Shown piece after piece: positions 30,850 to 34,971 of a stretch of 35,034 nucleotides of DNA. Position 1 is the first letter of the stretch, and every line of letters begins with the position of its first letter. The notes under the pieces were generated by a model. That model searched no databases, was not told the DNA's origin, and was given only the letters and a program-made list of their open reading frames with translations. Made by a program: the position numbers and the translations under genes. The DNA is from Acidimicrobiaceae bacterium (lineage in GTDB: Bacteria; Actinomycetota; Acidimicrobiia; Acidimicrobiales; RAAP-2). The stretch is from positions 1 to 35,034 of the forward strand of contig PLRX01000090.1 in assembly GCA_003164095.1 (NCBI GenBank), read 5' to 3'.

Positions 30850-31713
30850 GTGGCGAGCGACGCCGTGCTCGAGTGGTTCGACTCGCACTGCCACCTCCAG
30901 GACGAGTTCGACCGGCCCGACGACGGTCCCGTCGAGCCCCACGCCGATCGGCTGGCCGCCGCCATCGCACGGGCCTCCGAGGCCGGGGTCAGCCGTCTGG
31001 TGTGCGTGGGCACGGGTGCCGCATCGTCGGCGGAGGCCGTCACCCTGGCCAGGTCACTCCGGCGGCCGGGCGGTCCCGCCACCGCCGAGGGCGTGTCGCT
31101 GTGGGCCACCGTCGGCCTGCATCCCCATGACGCCGTCGACGGCGTCGACGGGCTGGACGGCCTCCTCGCCGCCGAACTCGACGGTGGCGTGGCGCCGGCC
31201 GACCGGGTCGTGGTCGGCATCGGCGAATGCGGGCTCGACTACCACTACGACCACTCGCCGCGTCCCGTGCAGCGGGAGGCCTTCGCCCTCCAGATCGAGC
31301 TGGCCCACCGCCACGGGCTCGCCCTGGTGATCCACACCCGGGAGGCGTGGCACGACACGTTCGGACTCCTCGAGGCCAACGGGGTACCCGAGCGCACCAT
31401 CGTCCACTGCTTCACCGGCGGTCCGGAGGAGGCCCGGCGGTGCCTCGACCTCGGGGCCTCGCTGTCCTTCAGCGGCGTGGTGACCTTCAAGAACGCCGGT
31501 GACGTCCGTGAGGCCGTCGCCCTGTGCCCGCTCGACCGGCTGCTGGTGGAGACGGACTCGCCGTTCCTGACGCCCGTGCCGCACCGTGGCACGCCCAACG
31601 AGCCGTCCCGGGTGCCCCTGGTGGGTGCGGCCGTCGCCCAGGTCAAGGGCATCGAGACCGCCGAGGTGGCCGCGGCCTCCACGGCAAACGCCCGCCGGGC
31701 GTTCCAGGTCTGA
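30850..31713 (+). CDS. tatD: TatD family metal-dependent hydrolase / DNase (287 aa)
   Basis: TIM-barrel metallohydrolase with 3'-5' exonuclease or repair roles in studied members. Metal ligands are visible: FDSHCH (H13, H15), GIGECGLDYHYD, VIHTREAW, IVHCFTGG and LLVETDSPFLTP. Length is typical. The GTG at 30850 lies three bases after metG, without a clear Shine-Dalgarno, so re-initiation after metG is likely. Gene order metG-tatD is conserved in actinobacteria. Confidence 0.95.
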   Translation: MASDAVLEWFDSHCHLQDEFDRPDDGPVEPHADRLAAAIARASEAGVSRLVCVGTGAASSAEAVTLARSLRRPGGPATAEGVSLWATVGLHPHDAVDGVDGLDGLLAAELDGGVAPADRVVVGIGECGLDYHYDHSPRPVQREAFALQIELAHRHGLALVIHTREAWHDTFGLLEANGVPERTIVHCFTGGPEEARRCLDLGASLSFSGVVTFKNAGDVREAVALCPLDRLLVETDSPFLTPVPHRGTPNEPSRVPLVGAAVAQVKGIETAEVAAASTANARRAFQV

Positions 31714-31776: not shown

Positions 31777-32310
31777 TCAGCCGGCCGTGATGACAGTCAC
31801 GAGCTGTGGGAAGGGGGCCGACAGGCCGACCTTCGGCGGGAGCCCGGACACCGAGAGCTTCGAGTCCTTGACGGAGGTGGGCGCGTAGGTCACCGTGATG
31901 GCCCAGTTGCCGGCCTTCGGCGGCGTGAACGCCGTGGGCAGGTCGAAGGAGCCCGGGTGGGACACGGTGATCTGCTGGGTGGTGGCGGCCCTGCCTGATT
32001 CGGCCGATGGCGCGTCGGAGATCTGGAACACCAGGTGGGCCGCGGTCACGACCCCCGTGAGCTGGGCCTTCACGTGCATCGTGGTGGAACCGGCCACGCC
32101 GGTCAGGGGTGACGAGGTGACCGACAGGGTGACTCCATCGACGCTGCCGGTGGCCGGGAGGTCGAGCGGGTTGGGCACCGTGGTGGTCGTCGGCTTCGGG
32201 GCGGTCGTCGTGGTCGAGGACGTAGAGGAGCTCGAGCAGCCGGCGGCGGTCACCAGGGCGGCCGTCAGGAGGACGGACGTGACGAGCGGAAGGGTCCGGG
32301 GGGAGTGCAT
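31777..32310 (-). CDS. Putative lipoprotein of unknown function (177 aa)
   Basis: N-terminus MHSPRTLPLVTSVLLTAALVTAAGC is a type II signal peptide with the lipobox TAAGC, so the mature protein should be lipid-anchored at Cys24 on the outer face of the membrane. A Ser/Thr-rich spacer (SSTTTTAPKPTTTTVP) follows, then a beta-rich domain of ~130 residues (VDGVTLSVTSSPLTGVAGSTTMHVKAQLTG ... PKAGNWAITVTYAP) of Ig-like look. No enzyme motif is seen. ATG 32310 follows TACGCT (32317-32322, minus strand) by six bases, giving a leaderless mRNA. Convergent with tatD, divergent from the RlpA-like gene. Confidence 0.85.
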   Translation of the reverse strand: MHSPRTLPLVTSVLLTAALVTAAGCSSSSTSSTTTTAPKPTTTTVPNPLDLPATGSVDGVTLSVTSSPLTGVAGSTTMHVKAQLTGVVTAAHLVFQISDAPSAESGRAATTQQITVSHPGSFDLPTAFTPPKAGNWAITVTYAPTSVKDSKLSVSGLPPKVGLSAPFPQLVTVITAG

Positions 32311-32444
32311 CGGGTCAGCGTACCGCCGCACGGGTGCCGTTCCCGGTCTCTCCCGGCCCGCTGACCAGGGGGTTCGGGAGAGACCTCGGATGGCCCCACC
32401 CCGTCCGGGGTCCACCCCGTGTTGCCCGGCGCCCGTCGTCCCGG

Positions 32445-32450
32445 TAGCGT
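32445..32450 (+). promoter_or_regulatory. -10 hexamer TAGCGT upstream of the RlpA-like leader
   Basis: TAGCGT matches TANNNT. The base six to seven positions downstream (about 32457) is the first base of an 11-bp inverted repeat, so the transcript would begin with that hairpin. No -35 box is obvious. Confidence 0.45.
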
Positions 32451-32456
32451 GGACCA

Positions 32457-32626
32457 ACGGCCACTCCACGGAGTGGCCGTGCCGCATCGGCCGACCTGTC
32501 AGGTCGTCGTGCGGAGGTCGGCTTGGAGGAGCCGGCCAAGTCCATCCTCTCCCCGGGTGGCCGACGTCGTTCGTCGGACCGTCCGGGACTGTCGGGGGAG
32601 GGACGCATCCCACAAGGAGTGGAGCC
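32457..32626 (+). ncRNA. Structured 5' leader RNA of the RlpA-like gene (candidate riboswitch or attenuator)
   Basis: About 170 nt, non-coding. It begins with ACGGCCACTCC (32457-32467) / GGAGTGGCCGT (32470-32480), perfect 11-bp arms. It then has CGACCT-GTC-AGGTCG (32492-32506), which competes with the longer pairing GCCGACCT (32490-32497) / AGGTCGGC (32515-32522). CCGACG-TCGTT-CGTCGG (32561-32577) is a further hairpin. The Shine-Dalgarno segment AAGGAGTGG (32614-32622) contains GGAGTGG (32616-32622), identical to the right arm of the first hairpin and fully complementary to CCACTCC (32461-32467). That would allow sequestering of the ribosome site. Actinobacterial genes for DPBB/Rpf-type wall proteins are often preceded by a c-di-AMP (ydaO) riboswitch; identity with that class could not be confirmed by eye. 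Confidence 0.5.
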
Positions 32627-33226
32627 CTGAGGAACCAACCCGATCGGAGTCACCGCCTCGCGGTGGCATTCGTGCTGTGCGCCGCACTGCTCGCCGCGCC
32701 CCTGGTCGCCCTGCACAGCAGCGGCGACGCTTCGGCGACACCGGCCCAGCCGTCCGCGGGGCGGCCAGCGGTATCGCCGGGCGGCGGTCCGGTCTCCGTC
32801 CGGACCCACGGGGCGGACCGTCCGCCGGTCGGACGTCCGGCGCCCGTGACGATCGCCGAGGCTCCCGTGGTCAAGGTCACGGCGACCTCGGTGCCGCCCA
32901 CCACCACGACCACGACGTCCACCGTGCCGCCCACCACGACCACGACGACGACGACGGTGCCGGCGGCCGAGGTCGAGGCCGCCGGTGCGGTGGAGACGAC
33001 CGGGGTCGTCACGTACTACGACCACCCGGCCGGGCGGTGCGCCAGTCCGTGGCTCCCCTTCGGCACCGTGGTGCATGTGACCAACCCGGCCAACGGCGCC
33101 ACCGTGACCTGCACGGTGGACGACCGCGAAGCCGACACGGCCCGCTCCATCGACCTGGCCACCGCCACCTTTGCCGAGCTCGCCCCGCTGTCGCAGGGCG
33201 TCATCGACGCCAGACTGAGCTGGTGA
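32627..33226 (+). CDS. Exported RlpA-like double-psi beta-barrel protein (199 aa)
   Basis: Secreted or wall-associated protein. Starting from CTG at 32627 the N-terminus is an ideal signal peptide (RNQPDRSHR, hydrophobic LAVAFVLCAALLAAPLVAL, then SGDASA), and AAGGAG lies exactly seven bases upstream; no ATG, GTG or TTG fits, since GTG at 32669 would remove the charged n-region. A Pro/Ser region and a Thr-rich linker (residues ~89-111) lead to a C-terminal DPBB domain (~125-199): VVTYYDHPAGRCASPWLPFGTVVHVTN ... CTVDDREADTARSIDLATATFAELAPL, with the RlpA-type DR and IDL motifs and two Cys likely disulfide-bonded. RlpA relatives act on peptidoglycan. It lies between tatD and rsmA, where other actinobacteria carry rpfB. 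Confidence 0.85.
   Translation: MRNQPDRSHRLAVAFVLCAALLAAPLVALHSSGDASATPAQPSAGRPAVSPGGGPVSVRTHGADRPPVGRPAPVTIAEAPVVKVTATSVPPTTTTTTSTVPPTTTTTTTTVPAAEVEAAGAVETTGVVTYYDHPAGRCASPWLPFGTVVHVTNPANGATVTCTVDDREADTARSIDLATATFAELAPLSQGVIDARLSW
32891..32956 (+). repeat. Two imperfect 33-bp repeats encoding VPPTTTTTT linkers
   Basis: GTGCCGCCCACCAC-type units at 32891-32923 and 32924-32956, rich in ACC/ACG/ACT Thr codons, forming a flexible, possibly glycosylated linker between signal peptide region and DPBB domain of the RlpA-like protein. Confidence 0.8.
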
Positions 33227-33287: not shown

Positions 33288-34148
33288 GTGACCCACGGGC
33301 GCGCCGAGATCCATGAGCTGCTCCTGGCCAACGACCTGCGCCCCAGTCGCGCGCTGGGGCAGAACTTCGTGGCCGACGCCAACACGGTGCGGCGGATCGT
33401 CCGGCTGGCCGGAGTCGAGCAGGGGTCGAAGGTCGTGGAGATCGGTGCGGGGCTCGGGTCGCTGACCCTGGCCCTCGTGGAGGCGGGGGCCGAGGTGACC
33501 GCCGTCGAGGTCGACCGCCACGTGCTGCCGGTGCTCCGGTCGGTGGTGGAGCCCGTCGGTGTCCGGGTGGTGGAGGCCGACGCCCTGCGGGTGGCCTGGG
33601 ACGAGGTGCTGGATGACGGCGGCCCCTACGCGCTGGTCGCCAACCTGCCCTACAACGTGGCGGTGCCGCTGGTGATCCGGGTGCTGGAGGAGGCTCCCCA
33701 GGTGACCTCGCTGCTGGTCATGGTCCAGCGGGAGGTGGGGGAGCGCCTGGCCGCCGCCGCCCGTGACGAGGCCTACGGCGCGGTGTCGGTCAAGGTCGCC
33801 TACTGGGCCACGGCGGCCGTCGTCGGCAAGGTGTCCGCCAGCGTGTTCATCCCCCGGCCGAGGGTCGAGTCGGTGCTCGTGCGGCTGGACCGGCACCCCG
33901 GGGGACCGCTGCCCACCGGCGACGGGCGGGTGGGGCCGGGGGCCGCCGACTACGAGCGGCTGTTCGCCGTGGTGCGGGGCGGTTTCGCCCACCGGCGCAA
34001 GATGCTGCGCCGGGCGCTCCTCGACCTCGTCGACCCCGAGGCCTTCGCCGCGGCCGGCGTCGAGCCGACGGCCCGGGCCGAGGAGCTCGGGCTCGACGCA
34101 TGGGAGCGCCTCGCCTGGTGGCGGCCGGCCGTCCCCGTCGCCTCGTGA
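33288..34148 (+). CDS. rsmA: 16S rRNA (adenine1518/1519-N6)-dimethyltransferase RsmA/KsgA (286 aa)
   Basis: Dimethylates the two adjacent adenines in helix 45 of 16S rRNA during small-subunit maturation. Motifs: RPSRALGQNFVAD at the N-terminus, VVEIGAGLGSLTLALVEAGAEVTAVEVD for SAM binding, N119-L-P-Y122 for catalysis on adenine, and VFIPRPRVESVLVRL plus GFAHRRKMLRRAL in the C-terminal domain. GTG at 33288 is the start that gives the family N-terminus; a weak CACACT hexamer lies six bases upstream. It is 61 bp after the RlpA-like gene and 16 bp before ispE, the normal actinobacterial arrangement. Confidence 0.96.
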   Translation: MTHGRAEIHELLLANDLRPSRALGQNFVADANTVRRIVRLAGVEQGSKVVEIGAGLGSLTLALVEAGAEVTAVEVDRHVLPVLRSVVEPVGVRVVEADALRVAWDEVLDDGGPYALVANLPYNVAVPLVIRVLEEAPQVTSLLVMVQREVGERLAAAARDEAYGAVSVKVAYWATAAVVGKVSASVFIPRPRVESVLVRLDRHPGGPLPTGDGRVGPGAADYERLFAVVRGGFAHRRKMLRRALLDLVDPEAFAAAGVEPTARAEELGLDAWERLAWWRPAVPVAS

Positions 34149-34164: not shown

Positions 34165-34971
34165 ATGACCCGGTTGACGGCCCCGGCCAAGCTCACGGTC
34201 ACGCTTGCCGTCACCGGTGTGCGCGCCGACGGCTACCACCTGCTCGAGTCCGAGATGGTCACGCTCGACCTGGCCGACACCCTCGAGATCGACGACTCCG
34301 GCGACGGCGCCGGCGAGACCGCACTCGAGGTGGTGACGTCCTGGCCCGCCGGCTCGGTGGCCCGCGACCCGGACGCCCTGGGCCCGGTGGCCGACAACCT
34401 CGTGGTCCGGGCGCTCGCCGTCGCCGGGCGGACGGCCCGGGTGCTCCTGGTCAAGCGGGTCCCGCCCGGAGCCGGGCTCGGCGGCGGGTCGGCAGACGCC
34501 GCAGCCGTGCTGCGCTGGGCCGGCTGCAGCGACCCGGCAGTGGCGGCAACCCTCGGTGCCGACGTGCCGTTCTGCCTGACGGGGGGTCGGGCCCTCGTCA
34601 CCGGGGTAGGTGAGGAGGTGGCGCCCCTGGCGTTCGAGGAGCGGACGTTCGTGCTCGTGCTGCCGCCGTTCGGTGTGGACACCGCCGCCGTCTACCGTGC
34701 CTACGACCGCCTAGGGGGAGAGGCGGCTGGGCGTGCGTCGACGGGTAACGACCTCGAGGCGGCGGCCCTCGAGGTGGAGCCCCGCCTGGTGGGGTGGCGG
34801 CACGCGCTCGAACAGGCCACAGGTCGACCGGCCCGGCTGGCCGGCAGCGGCTCGACGTGGTTCGTCGAAGGGGAGGTCGACGGAGTCGACCCCGGAGCGG
34901 AGGCGTGGCTGGAGCGGGAGGGGGAACTCGCCCCCCTGGTGGTGGCCCGGACGGTGCCGGGGCCTACCTGA
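34165..34971 (+). CDS. ispE: 4-diphosphocytidyl-2-C-methyl-D-erythritol kinase IspE (268 aa)
   Basis: GHMP kinase of the MEP isoprenoid pathway, phosphorylating CDP-methylerythritol. Visible motifs: APAKLTVTLAVTGVRADGYHLLES at the N-terminus, the ATP loop PPGAGLGGGSADAAAVLR, and the C-terminal ARLAGSGSTWF. Slightly short for the family but complete. ATG 34165 has GGAGG seven bases upstream and lies 16 bp after rsmA, so the two are co-transcribed. A GTG directly before the ATG (34162) is an alternative start. A strong hairpin follows 11 bases after the stop. Confidence 0.95.
   Translation: MTRLTAPAKLTVTLAVTGVRADGYHLLESEMVTLDLADTLEIDDSGDGAGETALEVVTSWPAGSVARDPDALGPVADNLVVRALAVAGRTARVLLVKRVPPGAGLGGGSADAAAVLRWAGCSDPAVAATLGADVPFCLTGGRALVTGVGEEVAPLAFEERTFVLVLPPFGVDTAAVYRAYDRLGGEAAGRASTGNDLEAAALEVEPRLVGWRHALEQATGRPARLAGSGSTWFVEGEVDGVDPGAEAWLEREGELAPLVVARTVPGPT

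Follow-up and report, generated by a model that had tools for sequence, protein, structure and literature searches.

A conserved structured leader RNA and an apparent CTG start codon at the gene of an exported double-psi beta-barrel protein between tatD and rsmA in Acidimicrobiales

The stretch of DNA analysed here, hereafter the window, comprises 35,034 nucleotides of contig PLRX01000090.1 from an Acidimicrobiaceae bacterium. Its plus strand carries metG and a locus with the gene order tatD-DPBB-rsmA-ispE, where DPBB designates the gene of a predicted exported protein with a double-psi beta-barrel domain. The features are the following.

30850-31713, plus strand: tatD, upstream neighbour of the DPBB gene
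32422-32450, plus strand: putative promoter, with a -35-like TTGCCC (32422-32427), a 17-nt spacer and a -10-like TAGCGT (32445-32450)
32457-32480, plus strand: P1, a hairpin of 10 bp, at the 5' end predicted for the transcript
32482-32514, plus strand: P2, a variable hairpin whose base, CCGCA/UGCGG, the six closest leaders share
32516-32537, plus strand: P3, a 9-bp hairpin with the apex CUU-GGAG-GAG (loop GGAG at 32525-32528)
32540-32604, plus strand: P4, a long hairpin
32606-32640, plus strand: start-site motif, UCCC ... AAGGAG (Shine-Dalgarno, 32614-32619) ... CTG (32627-32629) ... GGA
32627-33226, plus strand: DPBB gene with an apparent CTG start, for a predicted exported protein (199 aa) whose C-terminal part is a double-psi beta-barrel
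33288-34148, plus strand: rsmA (ksgA), GTG start, downstream neighbour, matching TIGR00755 above its cut-off
34165-34971, plus strand: ispE-like, third gene of the presumed operon, matching four IspE models, each below its own cut-off

In the window, a gap of about 60 nt separates the DPBB stop codon from rsmA. At 12 of 42 loci (L018, L020, L024, L025, L027-L030, L098, L100, L104 and L113), the GTG of an open frame with an RsmA motif overlaps the DPBB stop (GTGA), the sequence ending too early to tell in four further loci (L087, L088, L090 and L091), and this overlap suggests that in those 12 the translation of rsmA is coupled to that of the gene started at CTG. Between tatD and the DPBB gene lies a divergent lipoprotein-like open frame (31777-32309, minus strand) with a signal peptide, an AAGC box and an S/T-rich linker, for which a family-model search gave no match; by eye, it is also present in L003 and L004 and absent from L005-L009. 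A strong inverted repeat, GGTCTCTCCCGG/..TTCGGGAGAGACC, is found in front of this frame, at 32345-32385. Three contigs titled Acidobacteria (L149, L164 and L170; isolates G2_25, REEB96 and G2_27) likewise have tatD, DPBB and rsmA in a row together with the CTG start motif, and are probably mislabelled or mixed assemblies.

The hydrophobic N-terminus of the DPBB protein points to export, and the exported protein probably acts on the cell wall. The DPBB_1 domain was recognised in 24 of 26 homologues, the window protein itself matching with an E-value of 6.5e-05, under the Pfam cut-off. The rlpA model matches weakly (23 bits for a cut-off of 82), and a profile search retrieves PA4485 as well as papain-inhibitor and RlpA-like structures. 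Relatives of the protein occur in 35 of the 61 genomes searched. The genome of the window encodes a second, weak DPBB relative (L002, G000:C102:13767-14156; 30% identity, E 8.1e-5), at which the leader model R1 described below gives no match.

The region preceding the DPBB gene is predicted to fold into four successive hairpins, P1, P2, P3 and P4, with an energy of -103.8 kcal/mol (z -4.6), and none of 200 dinucleotide shuffles is as stable. A TTGNNN element, 17 or 18 nt and a TANNNT element stand directly before P1, in the same place, in 18 of 18 leaders, in agreement with the sequence-only reading of this DNA, which had placed the transcription start just before the first hairpin; a sigma-70 consensus scan for a promoter returned no site. 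The two arms of P1 (32457-32467 and 32470-32480) are 11 nt long and 2 nt apart, which as RNA gives 10 bp and a 4-nt loop: in the window, the local pairs have a probability near 1, and the innermost one, closing a 2-nt loop, a probability of 0. The spacer 3' of P1 is partly conserved and GUUUUGCA-like. P2 and P4 vary in length and sequence among leaders, the P4 strands CCUCUCC and UGUCGGGGGAGGG-like being kept in the six closest ones and different or absent elsewhere. A simple consensus scan of 32300-32700 found 0 sites resembling an intrinsic terminator. A pseudoknot between the P3 loop and a downstream UCCUC was considered and rejected, as by eye it is possible in some leaders and impossible in others.

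Comparison with relatives supports the view, already put forward from the window alone, that a structured leader lies upstream of the DPBB gene. In five genus members, leader DNA matches at the same locus over most of its length, with 71-75% identity. The alignment of P1-P3 (A2; 13 of the 14 leaders known at that point, 12 distinct, L007 left out) contains 17 consensus pairs, with 94.6% of cells pairing and 6 pairs altered in both partners; none of 500 shuffles, and none of the slid structures, attains any of the five measures. When P1 is considered separately (A7; 15 of 18 leaders, L007, L013 and L015 left out), 4 pairs have both partners changed and the covariation score exceeds that of all 500 shuffles; three other measures are reached by shuffles, namely in 174/500 for further pair types, 15/500 for pairs changed on both sides and 1/500 for such cells. 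For P3 (A6; 13 distinct rows out of 18 leaders, excluding L014 and L015 with a shortened apex and the copies L013, L061 and L062), compensatory stem changes give a score that, again, 0 of 500 shuffles reach, the number of pairs changed on both sides being reached in 42/500. All six slid controls, for the joint and the separate alignments, score lower. The stem of P3 varies from GGUCGG/CCGGCC to UAUAUCGG/ACGAUGUA, and its apex, CUUGGAGGAG, is the same in 16 of 18 leaders. P1 and P3 are base-paired elements of a conserved structured RNA.

To survey the distribution of the leader, 172 genomes of the family were searched with R1, a covariance model built on P1-P3. Matches with E < 1e-3 occur in 17 of them, every one at the DPBB gene, so that the proposed link between leader and gene holds for all clear matches: 11 belong to the 14 members of the window's genus, 4 to genus g5 and 2 to genus g21. 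One weaker match in g5 (G077, E 0.058) is by eye a real leader. At E up to 1, R1 matches in 88 of the 172 genomes; six weaker stretches were inspected, five of which are chance matches and one a contig end of the same locus (G002), and nine further weak matches were screened by motif only, with one motif match (L068). A P3-only model (R3), run on the 14 genus genomes, gave 9 matches with E < 1e-3 in 9 of them, at the DPBB gene, the next best having an E-value of 0.024; at E up to 1, all 14 match. The three genus members without a clear R1 match are G009, in which the contig ends inside the gene, and G003 and G011, which have neither leader nor DPBB gene, tatD being followed directly by rsmA. 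As these two retain rsmA, the leader travels with the DPBB gene, not with rsmA. Furthermore, P3 is missing in most inspected genera that retain the gene and its CTG, and is thus not essential for translating the gene.

The DPBB gene appears to start at an unusual codon, CTG, to judge from its reading frame and sequence context. In the window, the Shine-Dalgarno AAGGAG is followed after 7 nt by the CTG that it serves (32627-32629). The frame opens at CTG in 30 of 36 homologous places; the other six comprise two contig ends (L010 and L022), one place left out at its start (L031), and candidate GTG (L021 and L023) or ATG (L086) starts. Thirteen more CTG loci were found with RNA models, four with R1 and nine with a start-site model (R2), giving 43 in total, a set chosen by locating the CTG; G019 provides a further CTG start. 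At 14 of these 43 loci, the stretch from the preceding in-frame stop codon to the CTG contains no ATG, GTG or TTG, so that the CTG must serve as start there unless the signal peptide is cut short; at the other 29 the sequence alone would allow an upstream start.

Most CTG starts share one context, GUCC..(A)AGG.G.GUGGAGNNCTG(A/C)GGA, of which the window is among the weaker examples, the 5' GUCC reading AUCC and the 3' GGAC reading GGAA. A pattern search in which GTCC itself was not required returned 59 matches; all 40 DPBB loci among them have GTCC upstream, between -28 and -12, compared with 0 of the 19 other matches, one of which (L128) is too short upstream; the 40 loci were called by script (28) or added by eye (12), and 18 of them overlap the earlier set. 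A -10-like hexamer precedes the CTG by 56-76 nt in 30 of these 40 loci and by 186-220 nt in 8, those with the P3 apex, and none was seen in the remaining 2; the short distance elsewhere indicates that the leader of the window's genus has been enlarged by P2-P4. R2 matches the window with an E-value of 0.0149. Run on 298 genomes of the order, R2 matched 25 places with an E-value of at most 0.1, of which 12 correspond to DPBB starts and 13, with E-values from 0.0036 upwards, do not; weak matches are lost to the strict filters of R2. At L086 (G023), about position 947, the CTG has lost its context and the upstream half of the motif has turned into ATG TCC CCA G, which looks like the replacement of a CTG start by an ATG start.

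Two further candidate elements at the start site were rejected. A start hairpin, P5, would pair GUCC 5' of the Shine-Dalgarno with GGAC behind the CTG, and appears to covary in L028 (UCCGC/GCGGA), L026 (UCCCG/CGGGA) and L090 (GUUCAG/CUGAGC). The controls do not support it: strands swapped among species pair as well or better in 331 of 5,000 and 1,423 of 10,000 permutations, in the alignment A4 (16 of the 34 start regions known at that point) no pair has both partners changed, and the predicted folds of 11 start regions are no more stable than those of shuffled versions (z -0.85 to 1.55). The motif nevertheless stands as conserved sequence. The other candidate was a leader peptide encoded by a GTG-GAG-NNC-TGA mini-frame before the start; mostly out of frame with the gene but in frame in L019 and L027, it was dropped because of this varying frame and because the Shine-Dalgarno abuts its GTG.

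With regard to function, we lean, cautiously, towards a 5' leader that is specific to one gene, acts in cis and determines how strongly the exported DPBB (RlpA-like) protein is translated, with the P3 loop as the recognition element. Such a leader probably controls the amount of DPBB protein and, via the operon, may influence rsmA and ispE. We infer that regulation takes place, that translation is the regulated step and that P3 has a binder; translation is preferred since the scan found no intrinsic terminator, which fits translational control better than attenuation, and since a rare start codon is a natural bottleneck. Transcription would start just before P1, as the conserved promoter implies, P1 would form at the 5' end of the mRNA, and P3 would display its conserved GGAG loop, to be touched in trans most likely either by the anti-Shine-Dalgarno of the 30S subunit, as a standby contact, or by a protein. 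Initiation would then occur at the CUG codon behind AAGGAG, which would keep the basal rate low, so that the output would depend on the leader. In energy models, a contact of P3 with the anti-Shine-Dalgarno of the 30S subunit is possible, at -9.3 kcal/mol for an opened loop, but in a co-fold with the anti-Shine-Dalgarno end P3 stays closed and its loop unused (-16.8 alone, -18.3 together), which speaks against such a contact. A bolder form, to which we give little credence, has the leader sense the state of the 30S subunit: a free anti-Shine-Dalgarno end (or RsmA, through a likeness of P3 to helix 45) would bind the P3 GGAG, and the CUG would make initiation dependent on this contact. If true, wall remodelling by the DPBB protein would be tied, within one operon, to ribosome supply and to ribosome maturation through rsmA.

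These proposals have to be weighed against others, beginning with the mechanism first proposed for the window, a translational riboswitch in which the left arm of P1 gives up its local partner to mask the ribosome site. The letters on which it was built are all present: GGAGTGG occurs at 32470-32476 and again at 32616-32622, CCACTCC at 32461-32467 provides an exact 7-nt complement, and a second pair of mutually exclusive stems can be written as 32492-32498/32500-32506 (local) and 32490-32497/32515-32522 (alternative). Seven contiguous Watson-Crick pairs between the P1 arm and the ribosome site are, however, confined to the window, the other 17 leaders offering 3-5, and even in the window the long-range pairs have a probability of about 1e-7 and forcing them costs about 10.6 kcal/mol. 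In genus relatives, P1 is CCGCTCC-like and the Shine-Dalgarno region reads GGAGAGTGG; the 7-nt match is explained by changes in the window's genome, namely the compensated replacement of a G-C by an A-U pair in P1 and the loss of 2 nt from the start region, where GGAGAGTGG became GGAGTGG. Chance alone yields 7 or more Watson-Crick pairs 229 times when the P1 arm is shuffled 20,000 times (1.1%) and 52 times when the start region is shuffled as often (0.26%); a 7-nt match between the start region and some part of the leader turns up in 8.4% of 5,000 trials with dinucleotide shuffling. P1 as a hairpin and the fold as a whole clearly depart from chance; the complement is uncommon without being compelling. 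When G-U pairs are allowed, the other 17 leaders reach 5-9 nt (9 in L004 and L006), as CCGCU and GUGG are both common; weak pairing is possible in some leaders, and the negative is to that extent not clean. The alternative stem fares worse, with a probability of 0.000 and 8 nt in the window against 2-5 nt in the other 17 leaders, and its formation would destroy the covarying P3. As to the c-di-AMP riboswitch suggested as a possible identity, RF00379 scores 11 bits for a cut-off of 38 and on the opposite (minus) strand, and matches 0 of 37 genomes, that of the window included, compared with 2 of 14 control genomes. The first-proposed switch is unlikely as the mechanism, and sequestration of the Shine-Dalgarno by P1 as a general explanation is hardly credible. 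A small-molecule riboswitch with P1-P3 as its aptamer, of a class outside Rfam, would account for the partly conserved spacer after P1 and the conserved P3 apex; conserved unpaired letters are few, there is a single target gene, the leaders compared by eye have no pseudoknot in common, and Rfam gives nothing at gathering score over the whole window and, at a relaxed threshold, 8 matches all far below their cut-offs (best E 0.22), which makes this explanation very unlikely.

A more prosaic possibility is that the leader is passive, P1 stabilising the 5' end against mRNA decay and P2-P4 being lineage-specific padding, with no ligand and no switch. The variability of P2 and P4 agrees with it, as do the short distances from the -10-like hexamer to the CTG in 30 of 40 loci, where the gene works without P2-P4. 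Padding does not predict, however, that the 10-nt apex of P3 should stay identical in 16 of 18 leaders while the stem changes on both sides, and we regard a passive leader as unlikely, without dismissing it. That P1 might be a DNA operator for a transcription factor rather than an RNA hairpin is suggested by a dyad lying exactly at the predicted +1. G-U pairs, which a DNA dyad disfavours, are frequent in P1, occurring in 11 of 15 rows at one pair, and P3 likewise pairs through G-U, so an operator can be given next to no weight. Feedback by a protein such as RsmA/KsgA, acting on P3 as an imitation of helix 45 of 16S rRNA, draws on the resemblance of the P3 apex UUGGAGGA to the apex CCGGAAGG that helix 45 has in a genus member (L223), and on the position of rsmA as the next gene of the operon, with the stop/start overlap in 12 of 42 loci. 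RsmA methylates two adenosines in helix 45. The likeness is weak, at four of eight letters, the position of the second methylated adenosine is a G in P3, and G003 and G011 keep rsmA though the leader is gone together with the DPBB gene; feedback of this kind is accordingly improbable. We thus retain, as the cautiously preferred reading, a cis-acting leader that sets translation of the DPBB protein through P3.

The leader is real, conserved and of a known broad kind, and is undescribed in the literature searched: queries retrieved the mycobacterial rpfB work and nothing on a DPBB leader or a CTG start in a DPBB gene, and searches on CTG starts in Actinobacteria and on riboswitches with the stem Acidimicrobi- returned nothing on the tatD-DPBB-rsmA locus. 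The apparent CTG start, held at one gene across several families of an order, is a rare case, and gene finders limited to ATG, GTG and TTG will mis-start the DPBB gene. P3, a small hairpin with a conserved loop, is well suited to binding tests.

Several known systems offer comparisons. Targets of CsrA present GGA twice, once in the loop of a hairpin and once within the Shine-Dalgarno, and the P3 loop GGAG and the Shine-Dalgarno AAGGAG look like such sites; CsrA itself (PF02599) was found in 0 of 14 genus genomes and in 3 of 31 in all, the controls E. coli, B. subtilis and T. maritima matching. The 6C RNA (RF01066), considered as a small RNA that might target the leader, matches in 0 of 37 genomes and in 1 of 14 control genomes, none above the cut-off. 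The AUU start of infC is a case of control through a weak start codon. By analogy, the leader may be compared with ribosome standby sites and infC-type control, in that a Shine-Dalgarno-like element lies upstream of a structured start and a rare start codon is held over evolution.

Two further parallels concern wall-protein genes of actinobacteria. According to the parts of Schwenk et al. 2018 (PMC6009663) drawn on here, the c-di-AMP (ydaO/yuaA) riboswitch stands in front of rpfA, an actinobacterial wall-protein gene. As a leader of a wall-protein gene of actinobacteria, the DPBB leader resembles it, but differs in having no RF00379 match. The same parts of that study describe a transcriptional RNA switch with an intrinsic terminator before M. 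tuberculosis rpfB, at the locus tatD-rpfB-ksgA-ispE, with the start codon re-annotated to TTG, and restricted to a subset of pathogenic mycobacteria. As far as this account goes, the two systems share the slot between tatD and ksgA-ispE, a structured leader and a non-ATG start, and differ in that the DPBB leader has no terminator in the scan, a CTG in place of a TTG start, and a DPBB domain in the encoded protein. Their hairpins seem unrelated. The tatD-X-ksgA-ispE slot would thus hold two RNA elements that seem to have no relationship, the rpfB switch of M. tuberculosis and the leader described here; if the latter regulates, this would suggest that RNA-level control of the operon's wall protein arose more than once.
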